The notes beneath the pieces are model-generated. The model saw only the letters and a program-made list of their open reading frames with translations. It had not been told where the DNA came from and did no database searches. 39,868 nucleotides of DNA from a virus. Positions within the stretch are counted from its first letter, which is position 1; every line of letters begins with the position of its first letter. The translations under genes and the position numbers were made by a program. Location of the stretch: positions 1-39,868 of the IMG/VR virus record IMGVR_UViG_3300042371_000286; one strand, 5' to 3'. This document shows positions 12,601 to 39,868 of this stretch, piece by piece.

Positions 12601-15600
12601 AACGCCATGTCCAAAGGTATGGCAAACATACGAGTATTAAGCCGTATGGAAGCCCGTGCAAAGGAATTAGAACGAGACGGTACTCCAAATCTTGCAAGGG
12701 CTTTAAGGTCAGAAAAAGAGTATAAAAGAGCAGAGGCGTACCTAAATACAACCGAAGGTATCGCAGCTAAAAACTTGTTTGATATTTTTGATTATTTACA
12801 AAAAGAATACCCGCAACAATTTACAGCTACAGCTGCATATGGCGCTACTAATCCATTAGAAATGATTTCTGAAGCATTCGTAGATGTTCGCTTCCAAGAC
12901 TTATTAGCGAGTATACAACTTCCTAAAGACTTGTTAGTTGCGGCCCCTGAGTTTAAAGGTAGGGGCTTTAAGAATATGCTGGATGCGTTTGTAGACGCCA
13001 TACGTCGTATATTACGTATGCCTGCAAATGTCTCTAATACTGCGCTGGCCGCTGTGCTAGCAAACACTTCAGCGGTTGTAAGACAGAATAGAACTGTTCG
13101 TACATCCACTATGGAAGAGAAGTATGGTCGCAGTAAAATATATGAAAAGTATAGATCTTACGGTAACACCATAGCTAGCAGAAGTAGACGCCAACCGGGT
13201 GGTGTAAGTGACGACGCTTTATTAGCTCAGACAGGCACTAAACCACCACGTCCACCCAAACCTCTCACAGCACTACAACGTTTTGGTACAAGCCCTGTGC
13301 AGACAACTACCGACATAACGCGTAAGTTTATAAGCTATTGGGCATCATTTGATTACGCCATAAACAATAAAATACTAGATGCTATGAGAAAGCGTGGTGC
13401 TACTCAAGCAGAGATTGCGGAATCGTTCTATTTATTGCAGGTAACGCAAGCTGTACGGGCAGATAGTATGGCTGATGCTTTCCTAGAGCGTGGCGATATT
13501 GCGTATGATCCTAACATATATAAATTCGTTATCACAGAATCTACAGCCAACATGAAAGTTATCCGCGATAGCTTAGACAAACTAGCTAAAGCTAACAACA
13601 TTACACTTGAGAAAATGCATGCTTACGCTAGCGCAGCTTTTATTGCTCGTCGTGAACAAGGCTTAAAAAATGCCAATCTTCGTTTACAAAGACGTGTAGT
13701 ACAGTTAGTTGCTCAAGGTAAAAAAGCACAAGCTAAAAAAATGTATGACAAGAACTACAAGCTTGTCAACATGACTCAGGCAGAGATCAATGCAGGGCTT
13801 GAGTTCTTTAAACGCTACCCAGAACTAAACGATATCTCTGATACATGGAATGATGTACGTGAAAAAGTATTAGACTTTGCTACTGAGCAAGGCTTACTTG
13901 ATCAAGATACTCGTGACCAGTTATTAGAGGTTATGGATTATGTGCCATTCTTCCGGGTTGAGCAGTTAGAGGCTAAGGCTGGACCTAAAGAGTATGGTCA
14001 AGGTTTGATTGATACTATGAAGACTGTTCATGGTATGAAAGGCAGCAACCAAGAAATAAACGATGTGTTTGACAACATGGAGCGTTGGATTAAATACACC
14101 GTTACAAAAGCTATAAAAAACCGTGCAGCTATAGAAAAAATAGCCGAGTATAAAAAAGAATTGCCTAATGACATCAGATTAAATAAAGATGGTCGTAGTA
14201 AAAATACTGTAAGCGTTTGGGAAGACGGTAAGCTAACACGCTACGAGTTCCAAGGTATTGATGGCGAAACTATGGTGCACGGCTTTACTGGGCTAGAACC
14301 GGTTATTATGCCTGCTATGAAGTATTGGAATAAAGTTACAACCTTCTTGCGTTTAAATATTGTGCTACAACCTTTCTTCTCACTAGCGCAAATACCTCAA
14401 GATATGTTTAGTGCCATGTTTGTGTCCAATGTAAAAACATTGCCTTTGTTTACAATCCCACTACAAGTAGTGAAAGAGCTAGTATTAACTCCTATAGGTA
14501 TGAGTTCCGCACGTAAACGTTTAAAAGGAACTGTTACTGTTGGTAGGCATGACTTTAGCCGTGAATACGAACGCATAGATATAGACGCATTGGAAGAGTC
14601 TAAAACATATAAAACATACGAAAAGCTAGTTAAAGCTATCTTGTCACCCCTATCCGCATTATCAATGGCCTCAGATAACGTTATTCGACAAGCTGTATAC
14701 TCGCAAATAATGCTTGAATCTAAAGATGAAGCAAAGGCTATTAACGCAGCGGACGAGTTAATTAACTTCCGCCGTTCAGGGTATGGTGGCCTTGTAAACA
14801 TAATGCGTCAACTTGCTCCATTTGTTAACGCAGGCTTACAAGCTTTGCATATAGGGTTAGCTACCATAACGGGTAAAAGTATAAACCCTATAACTCGTAA
14901 AGAAGCTTGGCTTCGTATGATGAATACTGGTGGGCAGTTAATGGTTGCAGCACTAATATACGCTGCTTTGATGGCTGATGAAGATGAATATAAAAAGTTA
15001 GACCCTTCAGAAAAAGATAGAAATATCATAATGCCTAACGGGTTTAAGTTACCAATGCGTAATGACCTGTTCACCTTTTTCTTCAAGATTGTGCCTGAGC
15101 ATATGTACAATCGCTATATTGAACAAAGCGAAGACGGCACTAAAATGCAAAGAGCTTTAGTAACGGCCTTCAAAAAGGCTATGGCGGTTCCTGGGTCATT
15201 ACCCTCTGCTATCAGCCCTATGGTAGAGTCATACTTAAACGTAGATATGAGGACTGGTCGTCCTATAGTAGGACAAGGTCAAGCGGGACTAGACCCTGAA
15301 TTACAAGTTAGCCCTAAACGAACATCCCAATTAGCCCGTATGATTGGCGAAGCTGGTGATATATCACCGCTACAAGTAGATCATTTCTTGCAAGGGTATT
15401 TTGCAGCAACAGCATCAATCATGACAATGTTTACAAATTCAGTGATTGCTGATATGCGTGGTGAAGTATTGCCTACAAAGACAGCTACAGAGATGGCGCT
15501 GGAGTTTCCGTTTGTTAGCTCCTTTGTAACTAGAGAAAATGGCGCTCGTAATATGATGGACTTTTACGAGTTACAAGAACTAGTAAACGAAGCGTATAAA

Positions 15601-15903
15601 TCCTACACTAATTTAAAACGTAACAACTACGCTAAATCACAGCAATATTTAAACATCGATAATAATCGAGAATTAGTCGCGTTAGAAAAACACATGCAAA
15701 ATATATCTAAATCATTAGCTAATTTACGAACATACGAAACTAAGCTACTTCTCGATACAACCAATCGTTGGTCTGCAGATAAAAAACGTGCTGAACTAGA
15801 CAGAATTGAAAAACGACGTCAAGATATGCTAGGTTTTCAAGATGAGATTAACAATAGAAAAGAACGTCATATACAAAAACTACGTATCCAAGGCGGTCTA
15901 TAG
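9643..15903 (+). CDS. Very large internal virion / polyvalent protein with HEXXH motif
   Basis: At 2086 residues this is by far the largest product. The first 35 residues (INRLYDALQQADAAGNKEDAQQLADYIR) form a helical repeat found at the start of many giant phage proteins. A Gly/Ala hydrophobic region lies at about 150-200 and another near 322-340. A low-complexity Glu/Ala/Pro section follows (about 360-650), then a coiled-coil section. Residues 978-982 are HEVMH, a zinc-peptidase motif. From about 1440 to 1720 the sequence resembles large polyvalent protein domains of the LPD38 type (VPFFRVEQLEAKAGP, FLRLNIVLQPFFSLAQIPQDM). A hydrophobic helix is near 1765. It probably enters the cell with the DNA, as large internal proteins do; the protease is an inference. 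Confidence 0.7.
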   Translation: MADINRLYDALQQADAAGNKEDAQQLADYIRSELATQGQPAEQQLIKPAEQTPLVKPEETSFGERALGSLKQGFQSFDEASQGRELGRLKEEGKLPEAAAKMAEIKAKAAAPQAPTLSASDIQRIAHEKGYLPATMQVPSFVVEQILKSGPEMAESLIAGYASGALTTAGVAMTPAAPFAPIAGAIVGTIAGIGTYGYQQYGHFMDRQALEKQAPEELDPASAKKWAAITAPIGFAADKLTVGALKFGSKAIGTAAVEELAKRTTGQVVKETVEAGAKAGAKQGAVGIVAEAPTEVLEQMAERYQAGLSLDNEEAKQEYFEAFWGAAAMGGGLGAAAGTATGAYKKYNELKTIDDTVNEVNEVKPAKERASRETKLKESWSRLSAKGEELRKLRDEQDAAEEQAVAPVEVAKPVKRGAKPVPVVAETAPIVAEEATPEDMTVEEAPATTPGVLDATTLTSLGLNKRSNAFKELMGVDLNTSEGLAFFDETLDNHTGKINETAVGDYLRSIAPAVEATNEPIKSTPTKPAADRAGVSTPDEQRLEIPAERAVETDRGTVDVSGADVGQPAGGTEQGGAPLESLKVGDTTVVGTQTYRKTDTGFELVAPEEAAAPESIEATVAEEAVAPESTEVMKSAEELQAEDPTKQAKALASELRALDPTNPLIEDLRAYDVNEETIAFAQEQINQLVQERQAKGKTQPSELREIGELSDNLAATEGEPETEAMYRSERTVNEEYGFSTDELDARMAEVLPKLRTAQESLEKTRDQMLDTHNELSYVRYKNKDSDALNYFEGVYRLLEQQEARLKAEIEEHEDAIKSITLDQDIIGENYKRDRKRAALFEDKDYDGLIEALIDDNAITRKQVDFFRALLNGDAKAALKAIAELPLSEAQEKILASNEPGAPFRSGQKQLFKWYRSLASELLKAKVVPTKVIFSKHLNNGTAADYSAETDTVRIDAGDYLQTLGAYNIYSDVVNVFLHEVMHSATVNAMSKGMANIRVLSRMEARAKELERDGTPNLARALRSEKEYKRAEAYLNTTEGIAAKNLFDIFDYLQKEYPQQFTATAAYGATNPLEMISEAFVDVRFQDLLASIQLPKDLLVAAPEFKGRGFKNMLDAFVDAIRRILRMPANVSNTALAAVLANTSAVVRQNRTVRTSTMEEKYGRSKIYEKYRSYGNTIASRSRRQPGGVSDDALLAQTGTKPPRPPKPLTALQRFGTSPVQTTTDITRKFISYWASFDYAINNKILDAMRKRGATQAEIAESFYLLQVTQAVRADSMADAFLERGDIAYDPNIYKFVITESTANMKVIRDSLDKLAKANNITLEKMHAYASAAFIARREQGLKNANLRLQRRVVQLVAQGKKAQAKKMYDKNYKLVNMTQAEINAGLEFFKRYPELNDISDTWNDVREKVLDFATEQGLLDQDTRDQLLEVMDYVPFFRVEQLEAKAGPKEYGQGLIDTMKTVHGMKGSNQEINDVFDNMERWIKYTVTKAIKNRAAIEKIAEYKKELPNDIRLNKDGRSKNTVSVWEDGKLTRYEFQGIDGETMVHGFTGLEPVIMPAMKYWNKVTTFLRLNIVLQPFFSLAQIPQDMFSAMFVSNVKTLPLFTIPLQVVKELVLTPIGMSSARKRLKGTVTVGRHDFSREYERIDIDALEESKTYKTYEKLVKAILSPLSALSMASDNVIRQAVYSQIMLESKDEAKAINAADELINFRRSGYGGLVNIMRQLAPFVNAGLQALHIGLATITGKSINPITRKEAWLRMMNTGGQLMVAALIYAALMADEDEYKKLDPSEKDRNIIMPNGFKLPMRNDLFTFFFKIVPEHMYNRYIEQSEDGTKMQRALVTAFKKAMAVPGSLPSAISPMVESYLNVDMRTGRPIVGQGQAGLDPELQVSPKRTSQLARMIGEAGDISPLQVDHFLQGYFAATASIMTMFTNSVIADMRGEVLPTKTATEMALEFPFVSSFVTRENGARNMMDFYELQELVNEAYKSYTNLKRNNYAKSQQYLNIDNNRELVALEKHMQNISKSLANLRTYETKLLLDTTNRWSADKKRAELDRIEKRRQDMLGFQDEINNRKERHIQKLRIQGGL

Positions 15904-31010: not shown

Positions 31011-31609
31011 TATGCTGCCTCCTTATCTAAATCGTTAGCTTGAATTGCATCCCACACTGACTCATCAGAAGTGAGTGCGTCATACTCGTCACGCAGTGCG
31101 TCATACAACAGCCCACATAGGTCAGCTACTATATCACCTATCAGTGCATCGACCATCTCTATTTCCTTGTCAAACTGCTCTTGCCATACCTCAGCAAAGG
31201 GGTGGTCATCAACAAGGTAATACGCTATTGGTTCTACTTCGATATCACGCATGGTTACGTTATTGTGCCTACCCAAGCCCCATGACATACGAACATACCC
31301 ATCGAGGTCTTCGACATACTTTTGGAATATCGGATAGTCATCATAAAAAGAACCCAAGGCTAGCTTGAAGTCTACTACCCTACCTGCAAAGGCAGCACCA
31401 TCACCTTGTGACCAAAAGCCTGACCACGTTATGTCCCTCTCACGCACAGATTGAACGATGCCACGTCTGTTATAGTTACGAGGTGTCGTGCTGATTTGAA
31501 TGCCACGTTCCTTGCACTGTTCATCAAACCACTCATAGACAGACTCATGCCACCACTCACCATCGACATTGATTTCCCTATGCTTTTCTATTAGTTCGTC
31601 TTTAGTCAT
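31010..31609 (-). CDS. Unknown phage protein with GFWSQGDGA motif
   Basis: The 199-residue protein contains WWHESVYEWFDEQCKERGI, ITWSGFWSQGDGAAFAGRV and a highly acidic helical C-terminal part. The GFWSQGDGA-x-F-x-G-x-V segment is a motif I recognise from phage proteins without known role. Its ATG overlaps the stop of the 172-residue gene. An SD is weak, so coupling probably drives translation. Confidence 0.65.
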   Translation of the reverse strand: MTKDELIEKHREINVDGEWWHESVYEWFDEQCKERGIQISTTPRNYNRRGIVQSVRERDITWSGFWSQGDGAAFAGRVVDFKLALGSFYDDYPIFQKYVEDLDGYVRMSWGLGRHNNVTMRDIEVEPIAYYLVDDHPFAEVWQEQFDKEIEMVDALIGDIVADLCGLLYDALRDEYDALTSDESVWDAIQANDLDKEAA

Positions 31610-32124
31610 GTCAAATCCAATTCGATCGAGTTAATCTCTCTCGTCAGTATTTTGTTTAAGTAGGCATGCACGTTGTGGTCAGCTGGCACCTCTACCTTAG
31701 CTGCATCTTTGATAATCTTCTTACATTCATTAGACATGTAATAGATACCTACTGACCCTGCTGGGTATCGATTCTCTGCTACACGAAGTGACTCCTCTAA
31801 GTTACGCATATACCATCCTGTGGTTCTATCCGACTCTAGTTTGGTTAGTGCTACTGCCTGTGTAATCGCATCAAATATAGGGTGCGTAGACTTCAGCTCT
31901 TTATACGCTATATTCCAACCACTAAACCTAATGAATGGCGAGTCCATTCTATGCGCTATCTCTCTAGCCAAGCGTGATGTAGCTGACTCACCGTCTGATA
32001 TAGAACCTGTGCTAACTTGTTTCGCTATGTTTTTCAGTTGTCGGTCTGTAAACGTAGTTAAATCTATCTTCAATGTCAACGCCTTTGAATGGCGTAGTAA
32101 ATACGTTGGAACGTTAATGCTCAT
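31606..32124 (-). CDS. Unknown 172-residue protein
   Basis: The protein is mixed alpha/beta with a basic N-terminal half (ALTLKIDLTTFTDRQLKNIAKQV) and central GWNIAYKELKSTHPIFDAI. It is the first gene after the dyad element at 32139 and has SD AAAGGAG. No known motif. The element may set the expression of this gene and those after it. Confidence 0.65.
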   Translation of the reverse strand: MSINVPTYLLRHSKALTLKIDLTTFTDRQLKNIAKQVSTGSISDGESATSRLAREIAHRMDSPFIRFSGWNIAYKELKSTHPIFDAITQAVALTKLESDRTTGWYMRNLEESLRVAENRYPAGSVGIYYMSNECKKIIKDAAKVEVPADHNVHAYLNKILTREINSIELDLT

Positions 32125-32138
32125 GATGTTTCTCCTTT

Positions 32139-32170
32139 GTTAACTTCGTGGCAAACTTGCCACAATGTTA
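32139..32170 (-). repeat. 32-bp dyad element, copy 1
   Basis: On the minus strand it reads TAACATT, then GTGGCA-AGTT-TGCCAC, then GAAGTTAAC. Its first three bases are the stop codon of the 93-residue gene, and it is followed at once by AAAGGAG and the ATG of the 172-residue gene. It therefore fills the whole intergenic space inside an operon. It may act as an RNA hairpin or as a protein-binding dyad. Confidence 0.85.
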
Positions 32171-32449
32171 CGACTGTAATTTATATACCGCTACTAATTC
32201 ATTTACCTTGTCTACTACACTATCGGTATTGCTGCACACGTGTGTCTCCGACTCATGGCTGACGTTAGTCTCCATGCTGACATTTACTACCCAACCATTG
32301 GCTACCTTGTGCACTCGAATGTTAAGGCTACTCTCTCCTTCGACAGATACACGAGCGGTCTCCTCTATCTCAAATAGTTTTCGTGATGGTTGTGTTAATA
32401 TTTTGTTTCGCGTTATCGCGTCACGTATTGCTTTGGTTAAACTTGTCAT
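32168..32449 (-). CDS. Unknown 93-residue protein
   Basis: The product has a basic helix (LTKAIRDAITRNKIL), then beta strands (ARVSVEGESSLNIRVHKV, WVVNVSMETNV). AGGAG precedes the start, one base after the VWA gene stop. Its stop is the first codon of dyad copy 1. No family recognised. Confidence 0.6.
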   Translation of the reverse strand: MTSLTKAIRDAITRNKILTQPSRKLFEIEETARVSVEGESSLNIRVHKVANGWVVNVSMETNVSHESETHVCSNTDSVVDKVNELVAVYKLQS

Positions 32450-32450
32450 A

Positions 32451-33653
32451 TCATTCTCCTAAGTAAATGCTCTTGCCATGTGGCGAGGTTATACCCTTGC
32501 TAGTGATAGCCCATAGAGTAGGTGCTTCCCAATCCCCACCCCAATCCTGTTCGACATAGCCGTCAGTCAATACGATGATAGCTTCAGGCGTGATGCGCTT
32601 GTCCTTGAGATACGAGTTCAAGCTACCGACACGTGTGCCACCCCCACCCGCAGGTTTGGTTGTGGTTGCTAACCCATCGTAGTCACCGATGTTGTAGGTT
32701 TCGTGAGCAGCTACATCGTAGTCCCAGTAGATAAGTTCTAGGCTTTCGGGTGTCACGTCATCACATATACCAACAACTTCTGACAAGAACTCGTTAAGCT
32801 CCTCGTTACCGATAGAGCCTGACGTGTCGATGCCTACGACTAGCTTGCCTACTGTCTCACCTATCATCGAGGGCATGTAGATGTCCTGTCCGATAAACCT
32901 ACGTGATGGGCGTTTCCAAGATGTCTTATCCTTGTTCTTGCATGTAGCGTTGACAAACTCACGCAACTGCTCACGCCAATCTACCTTGGGTTCAAGTAGT
33001 TCTTGGATAGAACGGTTCTGATTGCCTGCCATTTTGCCACGAATAATCTCACCTTGACGTAGTGCTTGGTCAATCTGCTTTTGAACTTCTTTAACTTCGT
33101 CAGCAGTCAACTGTTCGGCACCTTCCCAGTCATGATGGTCGTGTCCACCTTGCTTGCTACCCTCACCAGTCTCACCTCCACCATCACCACTGTCCTTACC
33201 ACCGCCCGAAGGTGGTGGCTCTTGCTTGAGAATGTCAAACACTTGCTTAGTAGTCATGTTGGCAAAGCGTTTGTCATACAAACACATCTCAGGCATAGAC
33301 GCTACTTCCCCATGTGGGTCAGCTTCAACGATGGTATTGTTCACCACGTAGTCAGCTGCAATGTTGGCAAGCATAGGGTTTTCTTTCCATAGCTTGCGCC
33401 ATATCGTCATGTGCTGAAAGACTTTGTGTAACGCCTCATGTAACACGACGAACGTCAACTGCTTGTCAGTCAACGTGTCGATAAAGTTAGGGTTATACAT
33501 TACATCACGACCATTGGTCGCAGCTGTTGGTAAGTCTTCAGTGAACGTGACTTTGCCTATTGATAATACACCAGCGAATAAGCAGAATTGCTTAGAGCGC
33601 ATTATGCTGATGTGCGACTTCGTCACTCGCTGTTGCGAATTCAAAACTGGCAT
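32451..33653 (-). CDS. VWA domain protein with HEXXH metallopeptidase motif (DUF2201-like)
   Basis: The ATG at 33653 has AGGAG 7 nt upstream and gives 400 residues. An N-terminal metallopeptidase-like domain has H72-E73-x2-H76 (VVLHEALHKVF) and a downstream IAADYVVN helix that may supply a third ligand. A Gly/Asp/His-rich linker (150-180) follows, then a VWA domain with MIDAS D276-T-S-G-S280, T340 and T363-D-G365. The architecture matches DUF2201-type VWA-like metallopeptidases that pair with MoxR ATPases as chaperone or maturation systems. The gene begins inside the 87-residue gene (62-nt overlap). Confidence 0.85.
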   Translation of the reverse strand: MPVLNSQQRVTKSHISIMRSKQFCLFAGVLSIGKVTFTEDLPTAATNGRDVMYNPNFIDTLTDKQLTFVVLHEALHKVFQHMTIWRKLWKENPMLANIAADYVVNNTIVEADPHGEVASMPEMCLYDKRFANMTTKQVFDILKQEPPPSGGGKDSGDGGGETGEGSKQGGHDHHDWEGAEQLTADEVKEVQKQIDQALRQGEIIRGKMAGNQNRSIQELLEPKVDWREQLREFVNATCKNKDKTSWKRPSRRFIGQDIYMPSMIGETVGKLVVGIDTSGSIGNEELNEFLSEVVGICDDVTPESLELIYWDYDVAAHETYNIGDYDGLATTTKPAGGGGTRVGSLNSYLKDKRITPEAIIVLTDGYVEQDWGGDWEAPTLWAITSKGITSPHGKSIYLGE

Positions 33654-33858
33654 AAAAGTTCTCCTCATGTGCGGTTAATTGTTTAATGCTTTCGATCAAA
33701 TGGAATGCTTTAATCGGTGTGCACTTATACTCGGTATCACGCCAAATGATTTTTACTTCATTGGGGCTGATAACAAAGTCAACATCGGGTAAATCCCTAG
33801 TGATGTCTTGTAATGTTTTAAATGCGTTACGGACTTGCAATAGTTCTTGTGAAGCCAT
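33592..33858 (-). CDS. Small protein between MoxR ATPase and VWA genes
   Basis: The start at 33858 has AGGAG 7 nt upstream; the longer frame from 33903 would run into the ATPase gene. The 87-residue product (MASQELLQVRNAFKTLQDI ... DVDFVISPNEVKIIWRDTEY) is helix-strand-strand-helix. It overlaps the VWA gene by 62 nt in another frame, which is long for this genome. Its steady place between ATPase and VWA suggests an adaptor. Confidence 0.65.
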   Translation of the reverse strand: MASQELLQVRNAFKTLQDITRDLPDVDFVISPNEVKIIWRDTEYKCTPIKAFHLIESIKQLTAHEENFYASFEFATASDEVAHQHNAL

Positions 33859-33872
33859 TCTATTTCTCCTAA

Positions 33873-34919
33873 TTAAAAGTATTGATTGTTTGATACTGCC
33901 CACGTAACAAAGGATTTGTTAGTCGCGGCTACTGCTTTACGGCTTGACGCCATAATGTTTATTGCAAATAGTGCTTGTGTTTCCATGGGTAGACGTTGAA
34001 TGTATTTCATCCACGCATCCATGTGTTCCTCAGTGATTGTCATTAACTCACGCATCACTAAGATTACCCTTGCCGATGGGTCTTTCGGGACCATCGCTTT
34101 CTCAGGTTCTTTGTAGACAGACTCACGACTTGGCAGTCCATCAGCTAGACTAAAGTATGCAGACATATCCCTTGCAGCTGACTCGCCGATAGTGCCGACT
34201 AGAGCCGTCAGGGTGGTATCCTCTCCCAACACGTCACGATTTTTAACAATCAGCGAAGCTTTCGCTAGTGACCGTGGTGATACAAAAGAGTCCTGTTGTT
34301 TGCGTGGGTTATACATATACATGTTCTCTTTCTGAGACTCGTCTGTATACATAGCTAGGCAGTGGGGGAACTGCTTGACCCATGCCAATACCTCGGGCGC
34401 AATGCCATTGTCTACACCCCAGTTAATCCACTCGTCATCGTTCGGGTTACGCACAGTGACCATAGTCAATCTGTTCTTAGCATGGGCTTTCATCGCATCG
34501 CCCACACCATCTGTCGTTAAGTTACCTGTTGAATACACAATCGAGTCGGGGTGAAACTTCACCGAGCCTAGACGTCTCTCTAACATTACAGGTAACAACA
34601 TGTTCTTAACAGGCTCACTAGCCTTGGTTATCTCGTCTAGCATAATCAACACTGGCTTGCCATGTTGCAGGCTAAAGCGTTCATTAGGATAGAACGAGGT
34701 GGTCTTGTCATTGTGGTTCATGGCTGGCATGGCTAAGTCGCCTAAGTCTAAGTCAGCACAATCTATATACACAGGGATATGGTCTGGAAACCGTTTGCCT
34801 AGTGTCTGTAAGATAGAACTCTTACCAATGCCGGGTTGACCTCGTAGGTGGACAGTCACGTCTTTGCCCACTGTTGCTATCAATTCTTCTGCTTGTTTCA
34901 AACTCATCATTTGTTGCAT
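33873..34919 (-). CDS. MoxR-type AAA+ ATPase
   Basis: The 348-residue protein has Walker A with K33 (RGQPGIGKSS), Walker B D95-E96 (VLIMLDEITKA), a sensor-1 Asn in VYSTGNLTTDGVGD and a following NRLTMVTVRNPNDDEW segment, as in MoxR/CbbQ-type AAA+ proteins. These work with VWA proteins to insert cofactors or remodel targets. The VWA partner is encoded just downstream. SD GAGGAG. The target in this phage is unknown. Confidence 0.9.
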   Translation of the reverse strand: MQQMMSLKQAEELIATVGKDVTVHLRGQPGIGKSSILQTLGKRFPDHIPVYIDCADLDLGDLAMPAMNHNDKTTSFYPNERFSLQHGKPVLIMLDEITKASEPVKNMLLPVMLERRLGSVKFHPDSIVYSTGNLTTDGVGDAMKAHAKNRLTMVTVRNPNDDEWINWGVDNGIAPEVLAWVKQFPHCLAMYTDESQKENMYMYNPRKQQDSFVSPRSLAKASLIVKNRDVLGEDTTLTALVGTIGESAARDMSAYFSLADGLPSRESVYKEPEKAMVPKDPSARVILVMRELMTITEEHMDAWMKYIQRLPMETQALFAINIMASSRKAVAATNKSFVTWAVSNNQYF

Positions 34920-34941
34920 GGTAATACTCCTCTCGGTTAAG

Positions 34942-35736
34942 TTAATTTACTACGTCTAACACTTGTGGGTTGACTGCTTTTAAGGCATCATCAACCAATT
35001 TCTTCATGGCATTGGGTTGTCGCACATACACACGTTGACTTGACTTGTGGTCCCAATTACTTCTTTGTGTCTGCCACGCTATACACTCAAACATATCCCA
35101 CCATTGTTCTTCAACCCCTAAGTTAGCTATAACTTTATAGCTGTCTCTGTATGGTGAGTCCCAATAGTTTTTAAATGCTACATCCATATCACCTACCAAG
35201 TTGTCCATCGCATCTATGTAGTTATAGAACGGTTTGGCTGTCTTGCGAACTTCGTTCATGCGCTTACGATTAACCTTATACTTTGTTGGTTGTTCTAACA
35301 CGGTTATCGGTGTGTTGTCATAATTGAAATCGTAAACTTTGTGACTCTTAATTGGGTAGTAGTTAAAGAGTATGTTCCAATCGAAGTCCACCTTGAAACC
35401 CTTAGGCACATAGGCTTTCTCACTTAGGTTATACACTGGCACACCCAGCACTGCTTCAATAAACAATCGTGTGCTCATTGAGTAGTAGCCATGCATAGAT
35501 AACTTGTAGTGTGTTGGGTAGTAGGTAACTAAATCGGTGTAATGAAACCCAGCTACATACACGTCTACCCCATCACGTATCTCATGCTTGAGCCATTTTG
35601 TTTCGTCGCTACGATTACCGATACGACGTAGGCTTTGGTCACCACCACGTATCGGGGTGAGATTGTTAAACATATCTTTCGCTTGCTGATAACTGCCCAT
35701 CTTTTTAATTGGCTTTATATCTATATGAAACGCCAT
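34942..35736 (-). CDS. Unknown 264-residue first gene of the MoxR/VWA operon
   Basis: The protein is rich in Tyr, Asp and Lys (IDIKPIKKMGSYQQAKDMF, YYPTHYKLSMHGYYS, NYYPIKSHKVYDFNYDNTPI) and has a helical C-terminus. It is first after a strong promoter and a dyad element, and is separated from the ATPase by 22 nt. No family is recognised. As the first gene of the module, it may be the substrate or a regulator of the ATPase/VWA pair. Confidence 0.7.
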   Translation of the reverse strand: MAFHIDIKPIKKMGSYQQAKDMFNNLTPIRGGDQSLRRIGNRSDETKWLKHEIRDGVDVYVAGFHYTDLVTYYPTHYKLSMHGYYSMSTRLFIEAVLGVPVYNLSEKAYVPKGFKVDFDWNILFNYYPIKSHKVYDFNYDNTPITVLEQPTKYKVNRKRMNEVRKTAKPFYNYIDAMDNLVGDMDVAFKNYWDSPYRDSYKVIANLGVEEQWWDMFECIAWQTQRSNWDHKSSQRVYVRQPNAMKKLVDDALKAVNPQVLDVVN

Positions 35737-35750
35737 GATAATTCTCCTTT

Positions 35751-35782
35751 GTTAACTTCGTGGCAAACTTGCCACTTTGTTA
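35751..35782 (-). repeat. 32-bp dyad element, copy 2
   Basis: Minus strand: TAACAAA, GTGGCA-AGTT-TGCCAC, GAAGTTAAC, then AAAGGAG and the ATG of the 264-residue gene. It lies in the 5' leader of the MoxR/VWA operon about 50-80 nt after the predicted transcription start. The central 16 bp are identical to copy 1. Confidence 0.85.
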
Positions 35783-35792
35783 CTAAATCGTA

Positions 35793-35808
35793 GTAACATA
35801 TATGTTAC
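35793..35808. promoter_or_regulatory. 16-bp perfect palindrome, candidate operator
   Basis: GTAACATA/TATGTTAC is a perfect palindrome between the promoter at 35841 and dyad copy 2. Flanking GTAGTAACA and TGTTACTAC give a further overlapping inverted repeat. A dimeric repressor could bind just downstream of the transcription start. Confidence 0.55.
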
Positions 35809-35840
35809 TGTTACTACAGCTAATCAACGACTGAACTAAC

Positions 35841-35869
35841 ATTGTAACACATACGCACTACATTGTCAA
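35841..35869 (-). promoter_or_regulatory. sigma70-type promoter for the MoxR/VWA operon
   Basis: Minus strand TTGACA (35864-35869), 17-nt spacer, TACAAT (35841-35846). The 17 bp from the base before the -35 box are identical to those near 39000. It should drive the 264-residue gene, MoxR, VWA, DUF3150-like and probably the genes beyond. Confidence 0.8.
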
Positions 35870-36044
35870 GTTAGTGTTATGGGGTTCAGCTCTTGTAAGT
35901 CCTACAAGTCGGGACACCACCATTCCCTCCTGCGCTATGTATTGAGGTTCCTTGCTACACATGCCAGTTCAAGTAGCTCGTTCACGTGTGGTTTATACCC
36001 ACTCCAGTCCTCTCTGTCCGATGGACTACGCACCATCGTTTGCG
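35870..36044 (-). other. 175-bp region without a sure gene
   Basis: This stretch between the 46-residue gene and the promoter holds a small inverted repeat (CTTGTA-AGTCC-TACAAG) at about 35893-35909 and a 33-residue frame at 35935-36036 with no well-placed SD. It may be a leader, a 3' untranslated region or a small peptide gene. I see no terminator with a T-run. Confidence 0.4.
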
Positions 36045-36185
36045 TTACTCTTCCTCCTCGTCATCATCGTTGAGTTCTTTGGTTTTGTAGCTGACACCCA
36101 CTAGGTATTTCGATACCATTTCAGATATCATTTCAGACGCTTGCTCTTCTGTTTTTGCATACCATACTGCTTCAACCTTAATCAT
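36045..36185 (-). CDS. 46-residue acidic-tailed protein
   Basis: The frame MIKVEAVWYAKTEEQASEMI continues with a helix and ends in ELNDDDEEEE. AAAGGAGG is a strong SD, located within the end of the zinc-ribbon gene. The first strand and helix look like a small ferredoxin-like half. Function unknown. Confidence 0.65.
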   Translation of the reverse strand: MIKVEAVWYAKTEEQASEMISEMVSKYLVGVSYKTKELNDDDEEEE

Positions 36186-36388
36186 TTCAATCCTCCTTTG
36201 TGTGAACTGTTCAACCCTTGCAACAACGACATGTCAGTCACGACAATGTAATTGCTCTTGGGCATAGGCACGATGGTGTGCTTAACAAGACGCGCCTCTT
36301 CCTCGCCACAGAACAAGCAAGTCTTGTAACCTATGTTATATCTGCGGTCTTCCACATCATCACCGCACCTTACACATTGACTGGTCAT
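36182..36388 (-). CDS. Zinc-ribbon phage protein with LNSSHKGG end
   Basis: The 68-residue protein has C5-x2-C8 and C24-x2-C27 (CVRCGDDVEDRRYNIGY, TCLFCGEEEA), then VPMPKSNYIVVTD and LLQGLNSSHKGG. This layout, zinc ribbon followed by MPKSNYxxVTD and LNSSHKG, is one I recognise from many phages with unknown role. SD AAGGAG. It overlaps the 46-residue gene by 4 nt. Confidence 0.75.
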   Translation of the reverse strand: MTSQCVRCGDDVEDRRYNIGYKTCLFCGEEEARLVKHTIVPMPKSNYIVVTDMSLLQGLNSSHKGGLK

Positions 36389-36389
36389 G

Positions 36390-36593
36390 CTATTGCTCCT
36401 TGTTTTCTACTACACGAATGTCCACATTGAAGCCCATGTTTTCAAGGGCGCCAATCATTCTCCACCTAACACCATCTGCATGTAGGAAGTCATACATCGT
36501 ATCTGCACAGTCCTCCCACTCCTCCTCCATTTGATCGGTGTAGTCATACCATAACTCTGCTGTTACTAGATACTTCTTCATTTTATTAGCCAT
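36390..36593 (-). CDS. Unknown acidic 67-residue protein
   Basis: The product has a strand (KKYLVTAELWYDYTD), an acidic helix (MEEEWEDCADTMYDFL) and a second strand (MGFNVDIRVVEN), suggesting a small alpha/beta fold. AGGAG lies 7 nt before the start. It is one of a series of small genes after dyad copy 3. Confidence 0.65.
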   Translation of the reverse strand: MANKMKKYLVTAELWYDYTDQMEEEWEDCADTMYDFLHADGVRWRMIGALENMGFNVDIRVVENKEQ

Positions 36594-36603
36594 TACAGTT
36601 CTC

Positions 36604-36822
36604 CTAGTTAAAGTCTTCGTCAGTTAATACAGGTTGTGTCAATGCTTTTTGTAGCCTGTCCACTAACTCTTGCATTTCTTCGGGTGTGTTGCCCACCATG
36701 AACGGCTCACCATACGATGATGGTTTGTCTTTCTTATCATAGTGCACCTCAACAAACCGATAGGTTGAAAAGTCGGGGTCTTCGTTGGGTTCAAAAATTA
36801 CGCGGTGATTCCATGTAAACAT
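36604..36822 (-). CDS. Unknown 72-residue phage protein
   Basis: The sequence MFTWNHRVIFEPNEDPDFS, with strand RFVEVHYDKKDKPSSYGEPF and helix EEMQELVDRLQKAL, is typical of a small strand-strand-helix protein seen in phages. SD AGGAG. Its start shares a base with the stop of the DUF6915-like gene. Function unknown. Confidence 0.65.
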   Translation of the reverse strand: MFTWNHRVIFEPNEDPDFSTYRFVEVHYDKKDKPSSYGEPFMVGNTPEEMQELVDRLQKALTQPVLTDEDFN

Positions 36823-37166
36823 TACAATTCTCCTTCGGGTATCTCATAACCCCTGTTCATCCATGATTTGATCGTGATGTTTTCGAACCAGTCCTTGACT
36901 GTTGGAATTATCCCGCCACAATCTTCCTTAACGTGTTGCTCGCCGATGTAACGGACAGGCACCTCTCGCCCATCGCTGTTCACAATCATGTGACCAAACA
37001 CACGCTCGCACTCAAAGATACCTTGCGAGTGATGACGTAACGCACGATGCCTAGCATCTGCCCACACTTCCTTAGTGGCGTCGAACCAATCGTGTATCGC
37101 TGTGTAGTCCTCGACCTTACCGCCCCACTTCTTAACAGTGGTTAGTGCATGATGGTTGGGGTGCAT
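36822..37166 (-). CDS. DUF6915-like protein
   Basis: ATG 37166 (MHPNHHALTTVKKWGGKVEDY) has AGGAG upstream; a start at 37202 would invade the neighbour. The 114-residue protein contains IHDWFDATKEVWADARHRALRHH, NSDGREVPVRYIGEQHV and EDCGGIIPTVKDW, which match my memory of DUF6915. Conserved His pairs may bind metal. No function is known for the family. Confidence 0.7.
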   Translation of the reverse strand: MHPNHHALTTVKKWGGKVEDYTAIHDWFDATKEVWADARHRALRHHSQGIFECERVFGHMIVNSDGREVPVRYIGEQHVKEDCGGIIPTVKDWFENITIKSWMNRGYEIPEGEL

Positions 37167-37167
37167 G

Positions 37168-37623
37168 TTATTTCTCCTCGTAGAATGAAGCTTCATCGTC
37201 ATACGGGTCGTATGTGAAGTCGTAGTCTTCGGTGTGAGTTACGTTAATCTCCATGCCTACCTCGATAACAGGTAACTCACCCTCGAAGTTGATGGTCATT
37301 GTGCCTTGCCCACCCTCATTGTTATACCAGTCCATGCCTGTCGCATCGAGCACACGGTAGCCAATGTCATCTAATGCTTTATCTATAGAGATGTTTGACT
37401 GTGTTTTTACTTGGTCGCCATACACTTGCTTTGTCCAAGACACCATGTCAGAAGGCATTTCCATAGCCTCATTGTTCATGTTATACAGGTCGATGCTGTA
37501 TATCTCACCGCTGTCACCGCCACCTTGGTATGATATACCCACATACTTAACACCTAGCATTTTCATTTGCGCAGTGAGCGCAACCATTTCTTCCTTACTG
37601 TCAAAAAACTTTTCTCTAGCCAT
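37168..37623 (-). CDS. DUF6878-like protein
   Basis: The 151-residue protein contains VKYVGISYQGGGDSGEIYSID and, further on, DWYNNEGGQGTMTINF, and ends acidic. The GxGDSGxI and WYNNxGGxGT motifs resemble DUF6878, a family of phage and plasmid proteins. It is the first gene after dyad copy 3 and has a good SD. Function unknown. Confidence 0.65.
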   Translation of the reverse strand: MAREKFFDSKEEMVALTAQMKMLGVKYVGISYQGGGDSGEIYSIDLYNMNNEAMEMPSDMVSWTKQVYGDQVKTQSNISIDKALDDIGYRVLDATGMDWYNNEGGQGTMTINFEGELPVIEVGMEINVTHTEDYDFTYDPYDDEASFYEEK

Positions 37624-37636
37624 AATTCTCTCCTTT

Positions 37637-37668
37637 GTTAACTTCGTGGCAGGATTGCCACTTTGTTA
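37637..37668 (-). repeat. 32-bp dyad element, copy 3
   Basis: Minus strand: TAACAAA, GTGGCA-ATCC-TGCCAC, GAAGTTAAC, then AAAGGAG. The first three bases are the stop codon of the 95-residue gene; the next gene starts right after. Like copy 1 it is inside an operon and forms the entire intergenic region. Confidence 0.85.
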
Positions 37669-37953
37669 CTCGATACTAAATAATAAATAAACAAATACCC
37701 AAAACCCAAACAGACCAAGCGTAGCCATAGCAACAGTAAACAGTGCCTCTCGCACTACCTCTTTGGTGCGTGATATGACTGCGACCACACGATAGTTCTG
37801 CATATCGTCTTGGCTCTCGCTATGCACCCACTTAATCCATATTTCAGCCATGCCTTTGGTATCAAACAAACAACCAGCATGTTCGGGGTCTTTGTATATA
37901 TCAACCCACCTACCATTTACTTTTTCCTGCACTTTATAACGTATGTCAGCCAT
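37666..37953 (-). CDS. C-terminally anchored membrane protein
   Basis: The 95-residue protein has a soluble N-terminal domain (VQEKVNGRWVDIYKDPEHAGC ... MAEIWIKWVHSE in part) and one C-terminal transmembrane helix at about 71-93 (ALFTVAMATLGLFGFWVFVYLLF). The stop is the first codon of dyad copy 3. SD GGGGAA. Function unknown; early phage membrane proteins often alter host envelope functions. Confidence 0.65.
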   Translation of the reverse strand: MADIRYKVQEKVNGRWVDIYKDPEHAGCLFDTKGMAEIWIKWVHSESQDDMQNYRVVAVISRTKEVVREALFTVAMATLGLFGFWVFVYLLFSIE

Positions 37954-37963
37954 GCCGTTCCCC

Positions 37964-38110
37964 TTACCAAAGTAATAGTTCTAATTGTTTCTGTTGACTA
38001 GCCAACACGTGCACAGGTCGATTGTCAAATAGACACTCAAGGTATGCACGTATCCACCGTATGTTAGCTTTGCCATGCGCTTGCTTTATTGCCCACAGTT
38101 CTTTGTTCAT
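37964..38110 (-). CDS. 48-residue basic protein
   Basis: The frame encodes MNKELWAIKQAHGKANIRWI, then RAYLECLFDNRPVHVLASQQ and ends in QLELLLW. AGGGGAA lies before the ATG. It is in line with the 30-residue peptide upstream and the membrane protein downstream. Function unknown. Confidence 0.6.
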   Translation of the reverse strand: MNKELWAIKQAHGKANIRWIRAYLECLFDNRPVHVLASQQKQLELLLW

Positions 38111-38119
38111 GTCGTTCCC

Positions 38120-38212
38120 CTAGATATACACAACAGTGAAGTAGCACACAGCCACGATGACTGCGTAGATAAACAACAAGAACCCATACCCATCTTTTGT
38201 AAAACGTCTCAT
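38120..38212 (-). CDS. 30-residue transmembrane peptide
   Basis: The frame MRRFTKDGYGFLLFIYAVIV continues to AVCYFTVVYI: a positive N-terminus followed by one transmembrane helix. It has GGAG 8 nt upstream and is the first gene after the perfect promoter at 38291 and dyad copy 4. A tiny early membrane peptide is plausible, but the size limits certainty. Confidence 0.55.
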   Translation of the reverse strand: MRRFTKDGYGFLLFIYAVIVAVCYFTVVYI

Positions 38213-38224
38213 AATGTATACTCC

Positions 38225-38256
38225 GTTAACTTCGTGGCAAAGTTGCCACATTGTTA
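38225..38256 (-). repeat. 32-bp dyad element, copy 4
   Basis: Minus strand: TAACAAT, GTGGCA-ACTT-TGCCAC, GAAGTTAAC, followed by GGAG and the start of the 30-residue peptide. It lies in the 5' leader about 30 nt after the predicted start from the promoter at 38291. Confidence 0.85.
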
Positions 38257-38290
38257 CGTTGTGTGCGCACTATGCTCACCCAACAACTAC

Positions 38291-38319
38291 ATTATATACT
38301 AACTAGTGGACATTGTCAA
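38291..38319 (-). promoter_or_regulatory. Perfect-consensus sigma70 promoter
   Basis: Minus strand TTGACA (38314-38319), 17-nt spacer, TATAAT (38291-38296): exact consensus with optimal spacing. It should be very strong and recognised by host RNA polymerase at once after infection, driving the small-gene operon that begins with the 30-residue peptide. Confidence 0.88.
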
Positions 38320-38343
38320 GTCAGTGTTACGCCCTTTCTACGG

Positions 38344-38553
38344 TCATAGCTTGACCACACCTGTTCGTATCATCTCGCATTTGATGGCATACAGTTCCCA
38401 GTAGGCGTAGGGCATGGGGGTATCGCCCCTCTCCCATCGGTGCCATGTGCGCGTGTTCACGTGCAATAGGTTCGCACATTGTTTCGCCTCAAGCTTCATG
38501 CCTAAACGAAGTTCACGTATCTCACTGGGTTGGGGTGGTTTAATTATCTGCAT
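38344..38553 (-). CDS. XRE-type HTH regulator, second of a pair
   Basis: The 69-residue protein has an XRE helix-turn-helix at about residues 16-45 (LRLGMKLEAKQCANLLHVNTRTWHRWERG) and the ending MPYAYWELYAIKCEMI. It overlaps the 126-residue XRE gene by 14 nt. The shared layout, TWxRxExGxxxMPxxxWEL, shows the two are related. It ends just before the perfect promoter at 38291 and may control it. Confidence 0.8.
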   Translation of the reverse strand: MQIIKPPQPSEIRELRLGMKLEAKQCANLLHVNTRTWHRWERGDTPMPYAYWELYAIKCEMIRTGVVKL

Positions 38554-38920
38554 TTCGATCGCCCTTTGTTGTGTCTTTCAGTATCCCCTGTGCTATGCGG
38601 TCTTTGCGCCATTCTTCGTATGCTTCATCTTGTGCAATCTCTTCAGCACTGCGCCAATCAGAAAGAAGGTCGACCATCGCTTGATGTTCCGCATCTACAT
38701 CTCTCGCAGTAGGTTTCGCATGACCTTTAACAGATAGTTCTGCGACTTTCATAATGAACAGTTCCCATACAGGCGCAGGCATTTGTATGCGACCTTGCTC
38801 GTATCGTGCCCATGTATTGGGTTGGGTCATGCATAGTTCTGCTGCTGCTTGCTGTGTTAACTTCGTGTCAATCCGTGCACTTCTTACCTCATCGGCGGTG
38901 GGTATGTAATACTTTGCCAT
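38540..38920 (-). CDS. XRE-type HTH regulator, first of a pair
   Basis: The 126-residue protein has an XRE HTH at about residues 12-46 (VRSARIDTKLTQQAAAELCMTQPNTWARYEQG), then IQMPAPVWELFIMKV and an acidic helical tail (SDWRSAEEIAQDEAYEEW). SD AGGAG. It follows dyad copy 5. Phage XRE proteins bind short dyads and often control early promoters, so the dyads near 38978, 39223 and 39615, or the 32-bp elements, are candidate targets. Confidence 0.82.
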   Translation of the reverse strand: MAKYYIPTADEVRSARIDTKLTQQAAAELCMTQPNTWARYEQGRIQMPAPVWELFIMKVAELSVKGHAKPTARDVDAEHQAMVDLLSDWRSAEEIAQDEAYEEWRKDRIAQGILKDTTKGDRNADN

Positions 38921-38933
38921 TGTGTTTCTCCTT

Positions 38934-38965
38934 GTTAACTTCGTGGCAAAAGTGCCACTTTGTTA
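38934..38965 (-). repeat. 32-bp dyad element, copy 5
   Basis: Minus strand: TAACAAA, GTGGCA-CTTT-TGCCAC, GAAGTTAAC, then AAGGAG and the start of the 126-residue XRE gene. It lies in the leader of the regulator operon, which would allow autoregulation if the XRE protein or its transcript is involved. Confidence 0.85.
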
Positions 38966-38977
38966 GGGTTAAAATTA

Positions 38978-38992
38978 GCGACAAAATGTCGC
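38978..38992. promoter_or_regulatory. GACA-N3-TGTC dyad 1, candidate XRE operator
   Basis: GCGACA-AAA-TGTCGC is a perfect dyad just upstream of the XRE operon leader. A TTGACA hexamer (39000-39005 on the minus strand) lies next to it, and the dyad takes the place where a -10 box would be expected at 17-nt spacing. This suggests an autoregulatory site. Confidence 0.5.
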
Positions 38993-39091
38993 ACTACATT
39001 GTCAAGACCAAATTACGTGATTTTGAAAGTTTTGTAAGAGGGTCTTGTAAGGGGTCAAATTATACCCTTTTTTCTATACGATTGGTATAGG

Positions 39092-39169
39092 CGTTTGGTA
39101 TAGTTTTTATACGATACGACTAGTCGTTTGGTATAGTTTTTATACGATACGACTAGTCGTTTGGTATAG
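39092..39169. repeat. 33-bp tandem repeats (2.4 copies)
   Basis: Two exact 33-bp units (39092-39124 and 39125-39157) starting CGTTTGGTATAG and ending CGACTAGT are followed by 12 bp of a third. A fourth TTGGTATAG lies just before. Each junction forms CGACTAGTCG. A period near three helical turns with A/T-rich neighbours is iteron-like and fits an origin or a multi-site operator. Confidence 0.8.
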
Positions 39170-39222
39170 TAAAATGGGGTATTTTTGGGGTGTAAATTGA
39201 CAGTGTAAACACCAAATTACGT

Positions 39223-39239
39223 AGAGACATTTTGTCTCT
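39223..39239. promoter_or_regulatory. GACA-N3-TGTC dyad 2
   Basis: AGAGACA-TTT-TGTCTCT is a perfect 17-bp dyad and shares the GACA-N3-TGTC core and spacing with dyads at 38978 and 39615. Candidate binding site for one of the XRE regulators. Confidence 0.5.
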
Positions 39240-39286
39240 GAAAGTTAAGTGTTTGATTTTGTTCACTTTGTTCACTTCGTGATTTG

Positions 39287-39530
39287 TCAGGATTTACGTA
39301 ATAAGTCTTTGTTTTATATAGCGAATTACGTAGTTAGTGGACACTAACTTATTTCGTGAACTTCGTAACCTATTGATTTATATAGCGAATTACGTAATTA
39401 CGTGATTTTGCAGAAAAGTCGCATTGCGCGAGGTCACTTGAACGACGTTAACGAAGTTTACAAATCAAAAACTATTTGGAACCTCTAGATAGTTTATAAC
39501 GTATTTACGTAATTACGTAAATTTATTGTC
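39287..39530. repeat. Cluster of TTACGTAA-type words and short direct repeats
   Basis: TTACGT occurs repeatedly, including two TTACGTAATTACGT-type double sites near 39387 and 39505. A direct repeat TTATATAGCGAATTACGTA appears near 39314 and 39378. The palindromic TACGTA core and AT-richness suggest sites for a dimeric protein or an unwinding region. Confidence 0.6.
39332..39349. promoter_or_regulatory. 18-bp dyad AGTTAGTG/CACTAACT
   Basis: Eight-base perfect arms surround GA. Related half-sites (CACTAGTTAGT, ACACTAAC) occur around the promoters at 38291 and 35841, so it may be an operator of the same regulator. Confidence 0.45.
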
Positions 39531-39614
39531 CAGTTACTTTATGCATCAATGACTTACATGCATTACGTGACAAAAGTTGCACGTATTTTACGCAGACAAT
39601 GTCAAGTGCCGTCT

Positions 39615-39631
39615 AGAGACATTCTGTCTTT
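39615..39631. promoter_or_regulatory. GACA-N3-TGTC dyad 3
   Basis: AGAGACA-TTC-TGTCTTT matches dyad 2 at nearly all positions, with one broken pair. A TTGACA hexamer on the minus strand lies about 10 nt away, at 39602-39607. Confidence 0.45.
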
Positions 39632-39768
39632 ATTGTCACGAAGTTTACGTAGTTAACTACTATACAACCTGTATATACGTAATGACTAGGTGAACTTCGT
39701 GTAATTGAACTCACTCTCGGACTCACTCTCTTTCATATTACGGTCATAACTGCGCAAACGATAGGCGC

Positions 39769-39796
39769 AAAAAAGCCCACCAAAAATCGGTGGGCT
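39769..39796 (-). terminator. Intrinsic terminator of the gene entering from the right
   Basis: On the minus strand GCCCACC (39789-39795) pairs with GGTGGGC (39775-39781) around a 7-nt loop and is followed by six T's (A's at 39769-39774 on the plus strand). It lies about 30 nt after the stop of the partial minus-strand gene. Confidence 0.88.
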
Positions 39797-39798
39797 AA

Positions 39799-39830
39799 TT
39801 TAACTTAGTGGCAGAATTGCCACAATGTTA
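39799..39830 (-). repeat. 32-bp dyad element, copy 6 (variant, after a gene)
   Basis: Minus strand: TAACATT, GTGGCA-ATTC-TGCCAC, TAAGTTAAA. It differs from the others in the downstream flank (TAAGTTAAA for GAAGTTAAC), is followed by a terminator and not by an SD, and begins with the stop codon of the partial gene. Confidence 0.75.
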
Positions 39831-39868
39831 CTTGGTTGATTTTGCCAATTTAGCAATCTCACCAAAAT
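39828..39868 (-). CDS. C-terminal end of an unknown protein (partial)
   Basis: A frame open to the window edge ends in FGEIAKLAKSTK and a TAA at 39828-39830. The basic helical end, the following terminator and the coincidence of the stop with dyad copy 6 (as at copies 1 and 3) support a real gene end. Identity cannot be determined. Confidence 0.5.
   Translation of the reverse strand, partial: FGEIAKLAKSTK

Follow-up and report, generated by a model that had tools for sequence, protein, structure and literature searches.

Dyad copies in the early region

The window analysed here is a 39,868-nucleotide stretch of viral DNA (positions 1 to 39,868 of IMG/VR record IMGVR_UViG_3300042371_000286), and the element copies, promoters, terminator and R gene segment located in it below lie on the minus strand. 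Its early region carries six copies of a dyad element, all at the positions given in the initial annotation and with the exact GTGGCA/TGCCAC arms, variable centres and outer TAAC/GTTA arms (6 of 6) described there. Copy 1 (32139..32170, centre AGTT) precedes an SD sequence and the ORF 31606-32124. Copy 2 (35751..35782, centre AGTT) lies in the leader of the ORF 34942-35736 and starts at about +52 from the estimated start site of a putative sigma70-type promoter, TTGACA-17-TACAAT (35841..35869), assigned by consensus match only. Copy 3 (37637..37668, centre ATCC) is found ahead of the ORF 37168-37623 (DUF6878), and copy 4 (38225..38256, centre ACTT) ahead of a 30-aa ORF (38120-38212), at about +28 from the estimated start site of a predicted promoter with the perfect sigma70-type consensus TTGACA-17-TATAAT (38291..38319). 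Copy 5 (38934..38965, centre CTTT) precedes the XRE-like ORF 38540-38920, and no good -10 sequence was found upstream of it. Copy 6 (39799..39830, centre ATTC) closes the gene of a candidate cognate regulator of 232 aa, here termed R, the last codons of which occupy 39828..39868 and the full gene L013:4394-5092 on an overlapping contig.

As previously noted, the first bases of copies 1, 3 and 6 are the stop codon of the preceding gene, TAA in each case, namely those of the ORFs 32168-32449 and 37666-37953 and of the R gene, respectively. The proposed placement before an SD and a start holds for copies 1-5, which are followed by an SD and then an ATG, but not for copy 6, where a putative intrinsic terminator, recognised from its sequence (39768..39796), comes next in place of an SD and gene start. 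Likewise, the asymmetric right flank GAAGTTAAC that had been made part of the element is present in copies 1-5, while copy 6 has TAAGTTAAA instead. A seventh copy, TAACATTGTGGCGATATTGCCACTTTGTTA, is located on the overlapping contig 0.8 kb past the window end (L013:4269-4298), immediately upstream of a promoter, and since it carries the symmetric form (TTTGTTA) in its right half, GAAGTTAAC does not appear to be an essential part of the element.

The repetition is far beyond chance. The six exact copies of GTGGCAN4TGCCAC in the early region compare with approximately 0.001 expected from base composition, and with up to two mismatches allowed the pattern has 8 matches against a shuffle mean of 1.45, a count reached in 0 of 100 shuffles. 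A dyad finder likewise detected a family of six members in the real window, whereas 10 shuffled versions yielded none.

One layout with many sequences in related phages

Elements in related metagenomic phages were called by a within-locus family criterion, which replaced a loose dyad scan that was too noisy, and terminators and shifted duplicates were removed manually from the final list. It holds approximately 195 elements of one geometry across 45-46 loci, and common to all of them is the order of an outer arm, an AT-rich spacer, an inner arm and a 4-bp centre. The expected conservation in relatives is thus seen in the layout, which recurs at the same places, but not in the arm sequence, which is phage-specific and falls into at least 23 types; at the position orthologous to that of copy 1, for example, the relatives have elements of other types. 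The recurrence of the same layout in so many versions supports the earlier proposal that several early operons are coordinated through a dyad with a variable centre and a dimeric protein. Stray elements of another type are found in the mosaic phages L045, L027, L033 and L022. Among isolated phages that have a related terminase, HTVC027P, HTVC023P, 023Pt_psg01 and DSL-LC04 show no comparable element family in the 50 kb covered of each, a comparison from which a fifth record, Planktothrix phage Pag-Yong1, was left out.

The elements are placed in a consistent manner relative to promoters and genes. A near-consensus sigma70 promoter lies upstream of 61 elements, compared with 3% of random positions, and nearly all of the elements with such a promoter start at +22 to +63, mostly at +28 to +39, that is, outside the promoter itself. 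The median gap length is 66 nt for gaps with an element and 1 nt for those without. The element could in principle itself be a promoter for a phage RNA polymerase, of the N4 hairpin type or the T7 type, as it is repeated, phage-specific and found in one orientation before genes, in a phage whose ATPase/VWA pair resembles that of N4-like phages. The 61 sigma70 promoters upstream of the elements nevertheless make such a role hardly credible, and an RNA polymerase was not found among the window proteins searched. Moreover, N4 promoters differ in having a 3-nt loop and no outer arms.

The initial annotation had also named the two XRE proteins of the window as possible binders. Dyads are bound by XRE dimers, an XRE gene directly follows copy 5, and weak HTH matches to Aca2/YdiL and MqsA point to autoregulators, so that the element might be the operator of one of the XRE/HTH_31 proteins encoded at 38344-38920, autoregulating that operon along with others. 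However, these proteins have no counterpart in the relatives that were clustered, and are unlikely to be the cognate factor: the XRE gene cluster is found in the present phage only, whereas the element system is present in relatives. In addition, the perfect palindromes GCGACAAAATGTCGC (38978-38992) and GAGACATTTTGTCTC (near 39224) are better placed to serve the XRE proteins, and we regard an XRE operator as very improbable.

DNA site or RNA hairpin

The fixed placement of the element had further been taken to fit an RNA element acting in translation control, processing or mRNA protection, and a hairpin that works in the mRNA leader by controlling translation, by being processed by RNase or by protecting the 5′ end does have arguments in its favour. 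Most copies stand directly before an SD, mostly within transcripts, although placement before an SD is equally expected from a compact genome. The predicted RNA fold is stable, with a median of -11.9 kcal/mol. The flanks of the elements are asymmetric, being C-rich upstream, a feature for which a purely symmetric operator has no need and which counts against an operator; downstream there is simply an A/G-rich SD region with no 13-bp motif.

The remaining features point to recognition as duplex DNA. First, the two half-sites have equal base frequencies on the left and right at offsets 1-13, including a common ACA/TGT core, and this symmetry extends into the centre, which has A at position 1 and T at position 4 in 70 of the 154 unique elements. 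Next, mismatches in the core of the elements are A·C in 52 cases and G·T in 32, while terminator hairpins of the same contigs have 13 G·T and 2 A·C (Fisher p 0.0006 against the elements). The A·C mismatches are thus at least as frequent as those that would form G·U in RNA, and as the pattern is opposite to that of the terminators, the paired bases do not appear to be kept as RNA pairs. Finally, copies occur at positions poorly suited to a leader hairpin: some lie inside the R ORF (L026 2235, L043 3999 and L106 2588), one is found upstream of a -35 box (L013 4269), and others come ahead of terminators (L013 5103 and L063 4546). A search of the window against Rfam 15 gave nothing above the gathering score. 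At the level of sequence, the symmetry, mismatches, centre and placement favour a duplex-DNA operator over an RNA hairpin, which we now consider improbable.

Candidate regulator R and comparison with known systems

The most plausible partner of the element is R, an unannotated, fast-evolving protein of 190-245 aa with its gene in the control region, which was recovered in 19 loci at the same control-region position. The distance between R proteins correlates with that between half-sites (Mantel rho 0.33, p 0.0005, n=17), with rho rising to 0.56 in the close group and being 0.59 after allowing for ATPase distance, while the distance of the conserved ATPase itself shows no covariation with the element (rho -0.11, p 0.82). 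Of the 31 protein families compared, R does not have the highest rank correlation with the element, being exceeded by two small families of patchy occurrence (n=10 and n=9 loci). Elements were also predicted from R: of 8 further loci identified through a GTATA-type R, 7 have matching elements, usually one just before R, and a TCATA-type R locus has elements of its own type; as the R-found loci are largely relatives of loci already used, the Mantel and prediction tests are not fully independent. The covariation of arm sequence with one phage protein lends support to the suggestion that the dyad is recognised by a dimeric protein.

Neither sequence nor predicted structure links R to DNA binding by homology. 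R had no match above cut-off in Pfam or PHROG, R and the ORF after copy 2 had none in 50,697 phage records, and a fold search of two R models against solved structures gave no significant match. Both models consist only of a helical bundle plus long helices, with middling Z values to helical bundles. Cre chains were among the top Foldseek matches (E 0.3 or worse) and hhalign gave one plausible-looking alignment of R with Cre (P 0.06). The alignment was nevertheless not taken as evidence of a link to the Cre core-binding domain, as with a profile of eight recombinases, Cre relatives included, the match moved elsewhere and no matching domain was found (P 0.15; controls P 0.6-0.85).

Judging from sequence comparison, we propose, with a probability of roughly 60%, that the element is a palindromic operator bound by a dimer of R which blocks early transcription as a roadblock. 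The operator would span approximately 30 bp, with a half-site of 13-14 bp on either side of a 4-bp centre that leans to A/T, and would be present in 6-7 copies in the early region. Most copies appear to lie within transcribed DNA, some about 30 bp past strong early promoters of the sigma70 type and others between successive genes of these operons. R bound there would thus halt RNA polymerase rather than hide the promoter, and the roadblocks would shut down early transcription, that of the R gene included. R might instead be an activator, an antiterminator or a partition/replication protein. Multi-site palindromes near the control region would also fit plasmid-type global DNA-binding proteins, and the sites closely follow promoters that are strong as they stand. 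An activator would, however, be superfluous at near-consensus promoters, copies between genes and far from promoters fit roadblocks better, and no partition ATPase was noticed in an incomplete search of the window proteins, so that such roles for R seem rather unlikely.

If R is a roadblock repressor, it may serve early shut-off or keep out superinfecting relatives, and not serve lysogeny. Neither an integrase nor a serine recombinase was found in 14 records, several of approximately 66 kb, which may be fragments, and a search of 84,980 bacterial and archaeal genomes did not recover the lineage. A tentative extension, which we consider conceivable though not probable, is that R represents a new DNA-binding family with which phages that do not integrate silence their early transcription through roadblocks at many sites, and that the at least 23 specificities are the outcome of virulent relatives excluding one another from superinfection, amounting to immunity groups without lysogeny. 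This raises the question of whether repressor-operator immunity groups, otherwise described for temperate phages, exist in phages without an integrase. Within this one lineage, nature offers at least 23 operator sequences in one fixed layout, for many of which a candidate partner protein is available, and with such a set the rules that match a new family of proteins to their DNA sites are directly testable. The mosaic phages with stray sites may represent such a system caught in changing its specificity.

The initial annotation knew of no described element of this form, which stands for the sequence but not for the kind, as phage operators and stoperators, ESAS and SPBRE are comparable. The ESAS of cluster K mycobacteriophages have 17-bp imperfect inverted-repeat arms with a 4-13 bp spacer and are tied to the 13-bp SAS GGGATAGGAGCCC; the portions available of these reports describe the function as untested and propose no cognate protein (PMC3203893, PMC12699233). 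ESAS resemble the element as imperfect, short-spaced inverted repeats found immediately before the starts of some non-structural genes, and in a consensus that varies by subcluster, although the divergence is far larger here, the arms are 13-14 bp with a 4-bp centre and no SAS-like motif was noticed. SPBRE of the Bacillus phage SPbeta is likewise a repeated intergenic element, shown to be a multi-site operator of the master repressor MrpR, which maintains lysogeny and, like R, is not recognisable as a classical HTH repressor (PMC10516654). MrpR has a tyrosine-recombinase fold, whereas R has no accepted link to recombinases. The stoperators of the cluster A mycobacteriophages L5 and Bxb1, which are temperate, are asymmetric, 13 bp long and bound by an HTH repressor that is monomeric (PMC6550527, PMC9283540), in contrast to the base-symmetric palindrome of approximately 30 bp, the R family, unrelated by the searches run, and the lack of a detected integrase here. 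In both systems, however, many sites are spread over the genome in short intergenic gaps and near promoters, in the present phages those of early genes, the motif varies between related phages along with the repressor or, here, the candidate R, and the blocking of elongation by stoperators is the same mode of action that we propose for R (PMC6550527, PMC9283540).

Copies of the element in and around the window

The six minus-strand copies of the dyad element (32139-39830) match their first description exactly. At this base composition such exact arms would be expected about 0.001 times by chance, and an unsupervised search for dyad families returned these six from the window, a virus record of 39,868 bases, and nothing from shuffled windows. 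The contigs L001-L006 and L013, which overlap the window and are nearly identical to it, prolong its sequence and carry a seventh copy beyond it, just upstream of a predicted promoter. The stop codon within copy 6 belongs to a 232-aa gene, most of which lies beyond the window; an intrinsic terminator comes directly after this copy.

The control region holds further palindromes at 38978-38992, 39224-39240 and 39618-39628, of the form GCGACAAAATGTCGC / GAGACATTTTGTCTC / GACATTCTGTC, which are possible operators for the two XRE proteins encoded nearby (38344-38920); the first lies close to the start of the XRE operon. Within the long non-coding part of this region a unit of about 34 bp (TATACGATACGACTAGTCGTTTGGTATAG...) is repeated in tandem (39070-39170) and could be an iteron or other regulatory array. 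Elsewhere in the window, a 2086-aa protein carrying an LPD38 domain (9643-15903) is probably an ejected polyvalent protein.

Variation of the element and of protein R

Related loci, 38 at first and later 64, were collected with the conserved AAA ATPase (33873-34919, minus strand) as query. At the corresponding positions, namely before the ATPase gene, the ORF families c0 and c2/c12 and the first early gene, these loci have a dyad with an identical layout but in quite different letters: GTTCYG-TTT-TGCACT, GAACA-TTC-TTACT, GCGACA-AT-CGTATA, GTGACA-AA-GTTATA, GACATT-CCTACC, GTTCACAAA-CCCTCG, TGTGAATAT-CTCACG and others. Counting dyads that recur within one locus, there are 195 elements in 46 loci; 154 of them have unique arms, and no fewer than 23 types can be distinguished. 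Inside one phage the arms hardly vary, yet between phages they differ even at 80-85% ATPase identity. The L015 element, GTAACAAAGTTCACGAAGTTCCACAAAGTTAAGGAG (144-180, 1561-1597, 2167-2203 and 5259-5295), has unlike halves, mostly forms no simple dyad and is possibly a site in transition.

Clustering of all ORFs of the loci yielded a candidate cognate regulator, R, a protein of 190-245 aa. Its gene lies in the control region and was found in 19 loci, usually with its own promoter and its own element. Mean R identity is 73% among loci that share an element type and 7% across types, where the ATPases are 82% identical. The distance between R proteins rises with that between half-sites (rho 0.33, p 0.0005, 17 loci; 0.39 as a partial correlation on the ATPase), also in the close group of 13 loci (0.56, partial 0.59), whereas the ATPase distance is not significantly correlated with it (rho -0.11 and -0.08). 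R ranks third by rho among 31 protein families; the two above it are small and patchy (10 and 9 loci; L054 3778-4056 and L061 10705-11046), and their higher values may reflect chance or hitchhiking. When R served as query, matching elements were found in seven of eight further GTATA-type R loci and in the single TCATA-type locus, mostly immediately before R and, for the TCATA type, inside it; the CTACC-type R was found in the record bearing CTACC elements.

No relative of R was recognised in Pfam, PHROGs, PDB or phage records. The predicted models of R are all-helical; a likeness to Cre did not hold up on further comparison.

Some loci are mosaic. L045 has a CTCACG-type control region, yet retains two GTATA elements (6188 and 9961), and L027 (12336), L033 (4580) and L022 (3154) have one foreign-type element each, a pattern that would fit replacement of R first and conversion of the sites afterwards.

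Duplex DNA or RNA

Four lines of evidence favour action as duplex DNA. First, base frequencies at every offset from the centre are equal in the left half and in the right half read as its reverse complement, and an ACA/TGT core is common to the element types in both halves. Second, A·C mismatches in the core (52) are no less common than G·T (32), whereas terminator-like hairpins of the same contigs have 13 G·T and 2 A·C (Fisher p 0.0006). Third, the centre is A..T in 70 of the 154 unique elements, which no RNA tetraloop would require. Finally, copies lie within the R ORF (L026 2235, L043 3999, L106 2588), in L013 also upstream of a -35 box, and in both L013 and L063 between a stop codon and a terminator. 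The in-ORF site falls near codon 34 and thus also encodes VTKSSLNEIVTS-like residues.

The initial annotation had proposed both a protein-recognised dyad and an RNA element; the former gains from these results and the latter is weakened, even though the predicted hairpins would be stable and a weak C-rich asymmetry lies upstream of the element. The placement before an SD, taken as a sign of RNA function, loses its force since a compact genome gives it anyway (median gaps of 66 nt with an element and 1 nt without). In many loci a G-poor, C-rich AACC-like stretch just precedes the left arm, in leader and intergenic copies alike.

A candidate operator and known systems

Promoters were scored by match to TTGACA/TATAAT. 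A predicted promoter scoring at least 10/12 accompanies 61 elements, compared with 3% of random positions, and the first base of the element, counted from the estimated start site, falls with few exceptions between +22 and +63 and mostly between +28 and +39; in the window copy 2 (+52) and copy 4 (+28) follow this spacing. A protein bound there would leave the promoter free and obstruct the elongating polymerase. In one 66-kb record the sites are confined to the early region, adjoining the R gene. Most likely the element is an operator for an R dimer that would act as a transcription roadblock, repressing the early region, and would also regulate R itself.

Among 14 records of the lineage neither tyrosine nor serine recombinases were found, and a set of 84,980 bacterial and archaeal genomes did not contain the lineage, which suggests that the phage may not integrate. 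By terminase, the closest isolates include Pelagibacter phage HTVC027P (50% identity); the element system was not found in the 50 kb covered of each.

Judged by the defining features tested, the element falls outside both the class of L5-type stoperators and that of the ESAS of cluster K phages. The proposed mode of action is nevertheless like that of the L5-type stoperators (PMC6550527, PMC9283540), and in placement the element resembles both the ESAS (PMC3203893) and the SPBRE of SPbeta, which is bound by the repressor MrpR (PMC10516654).
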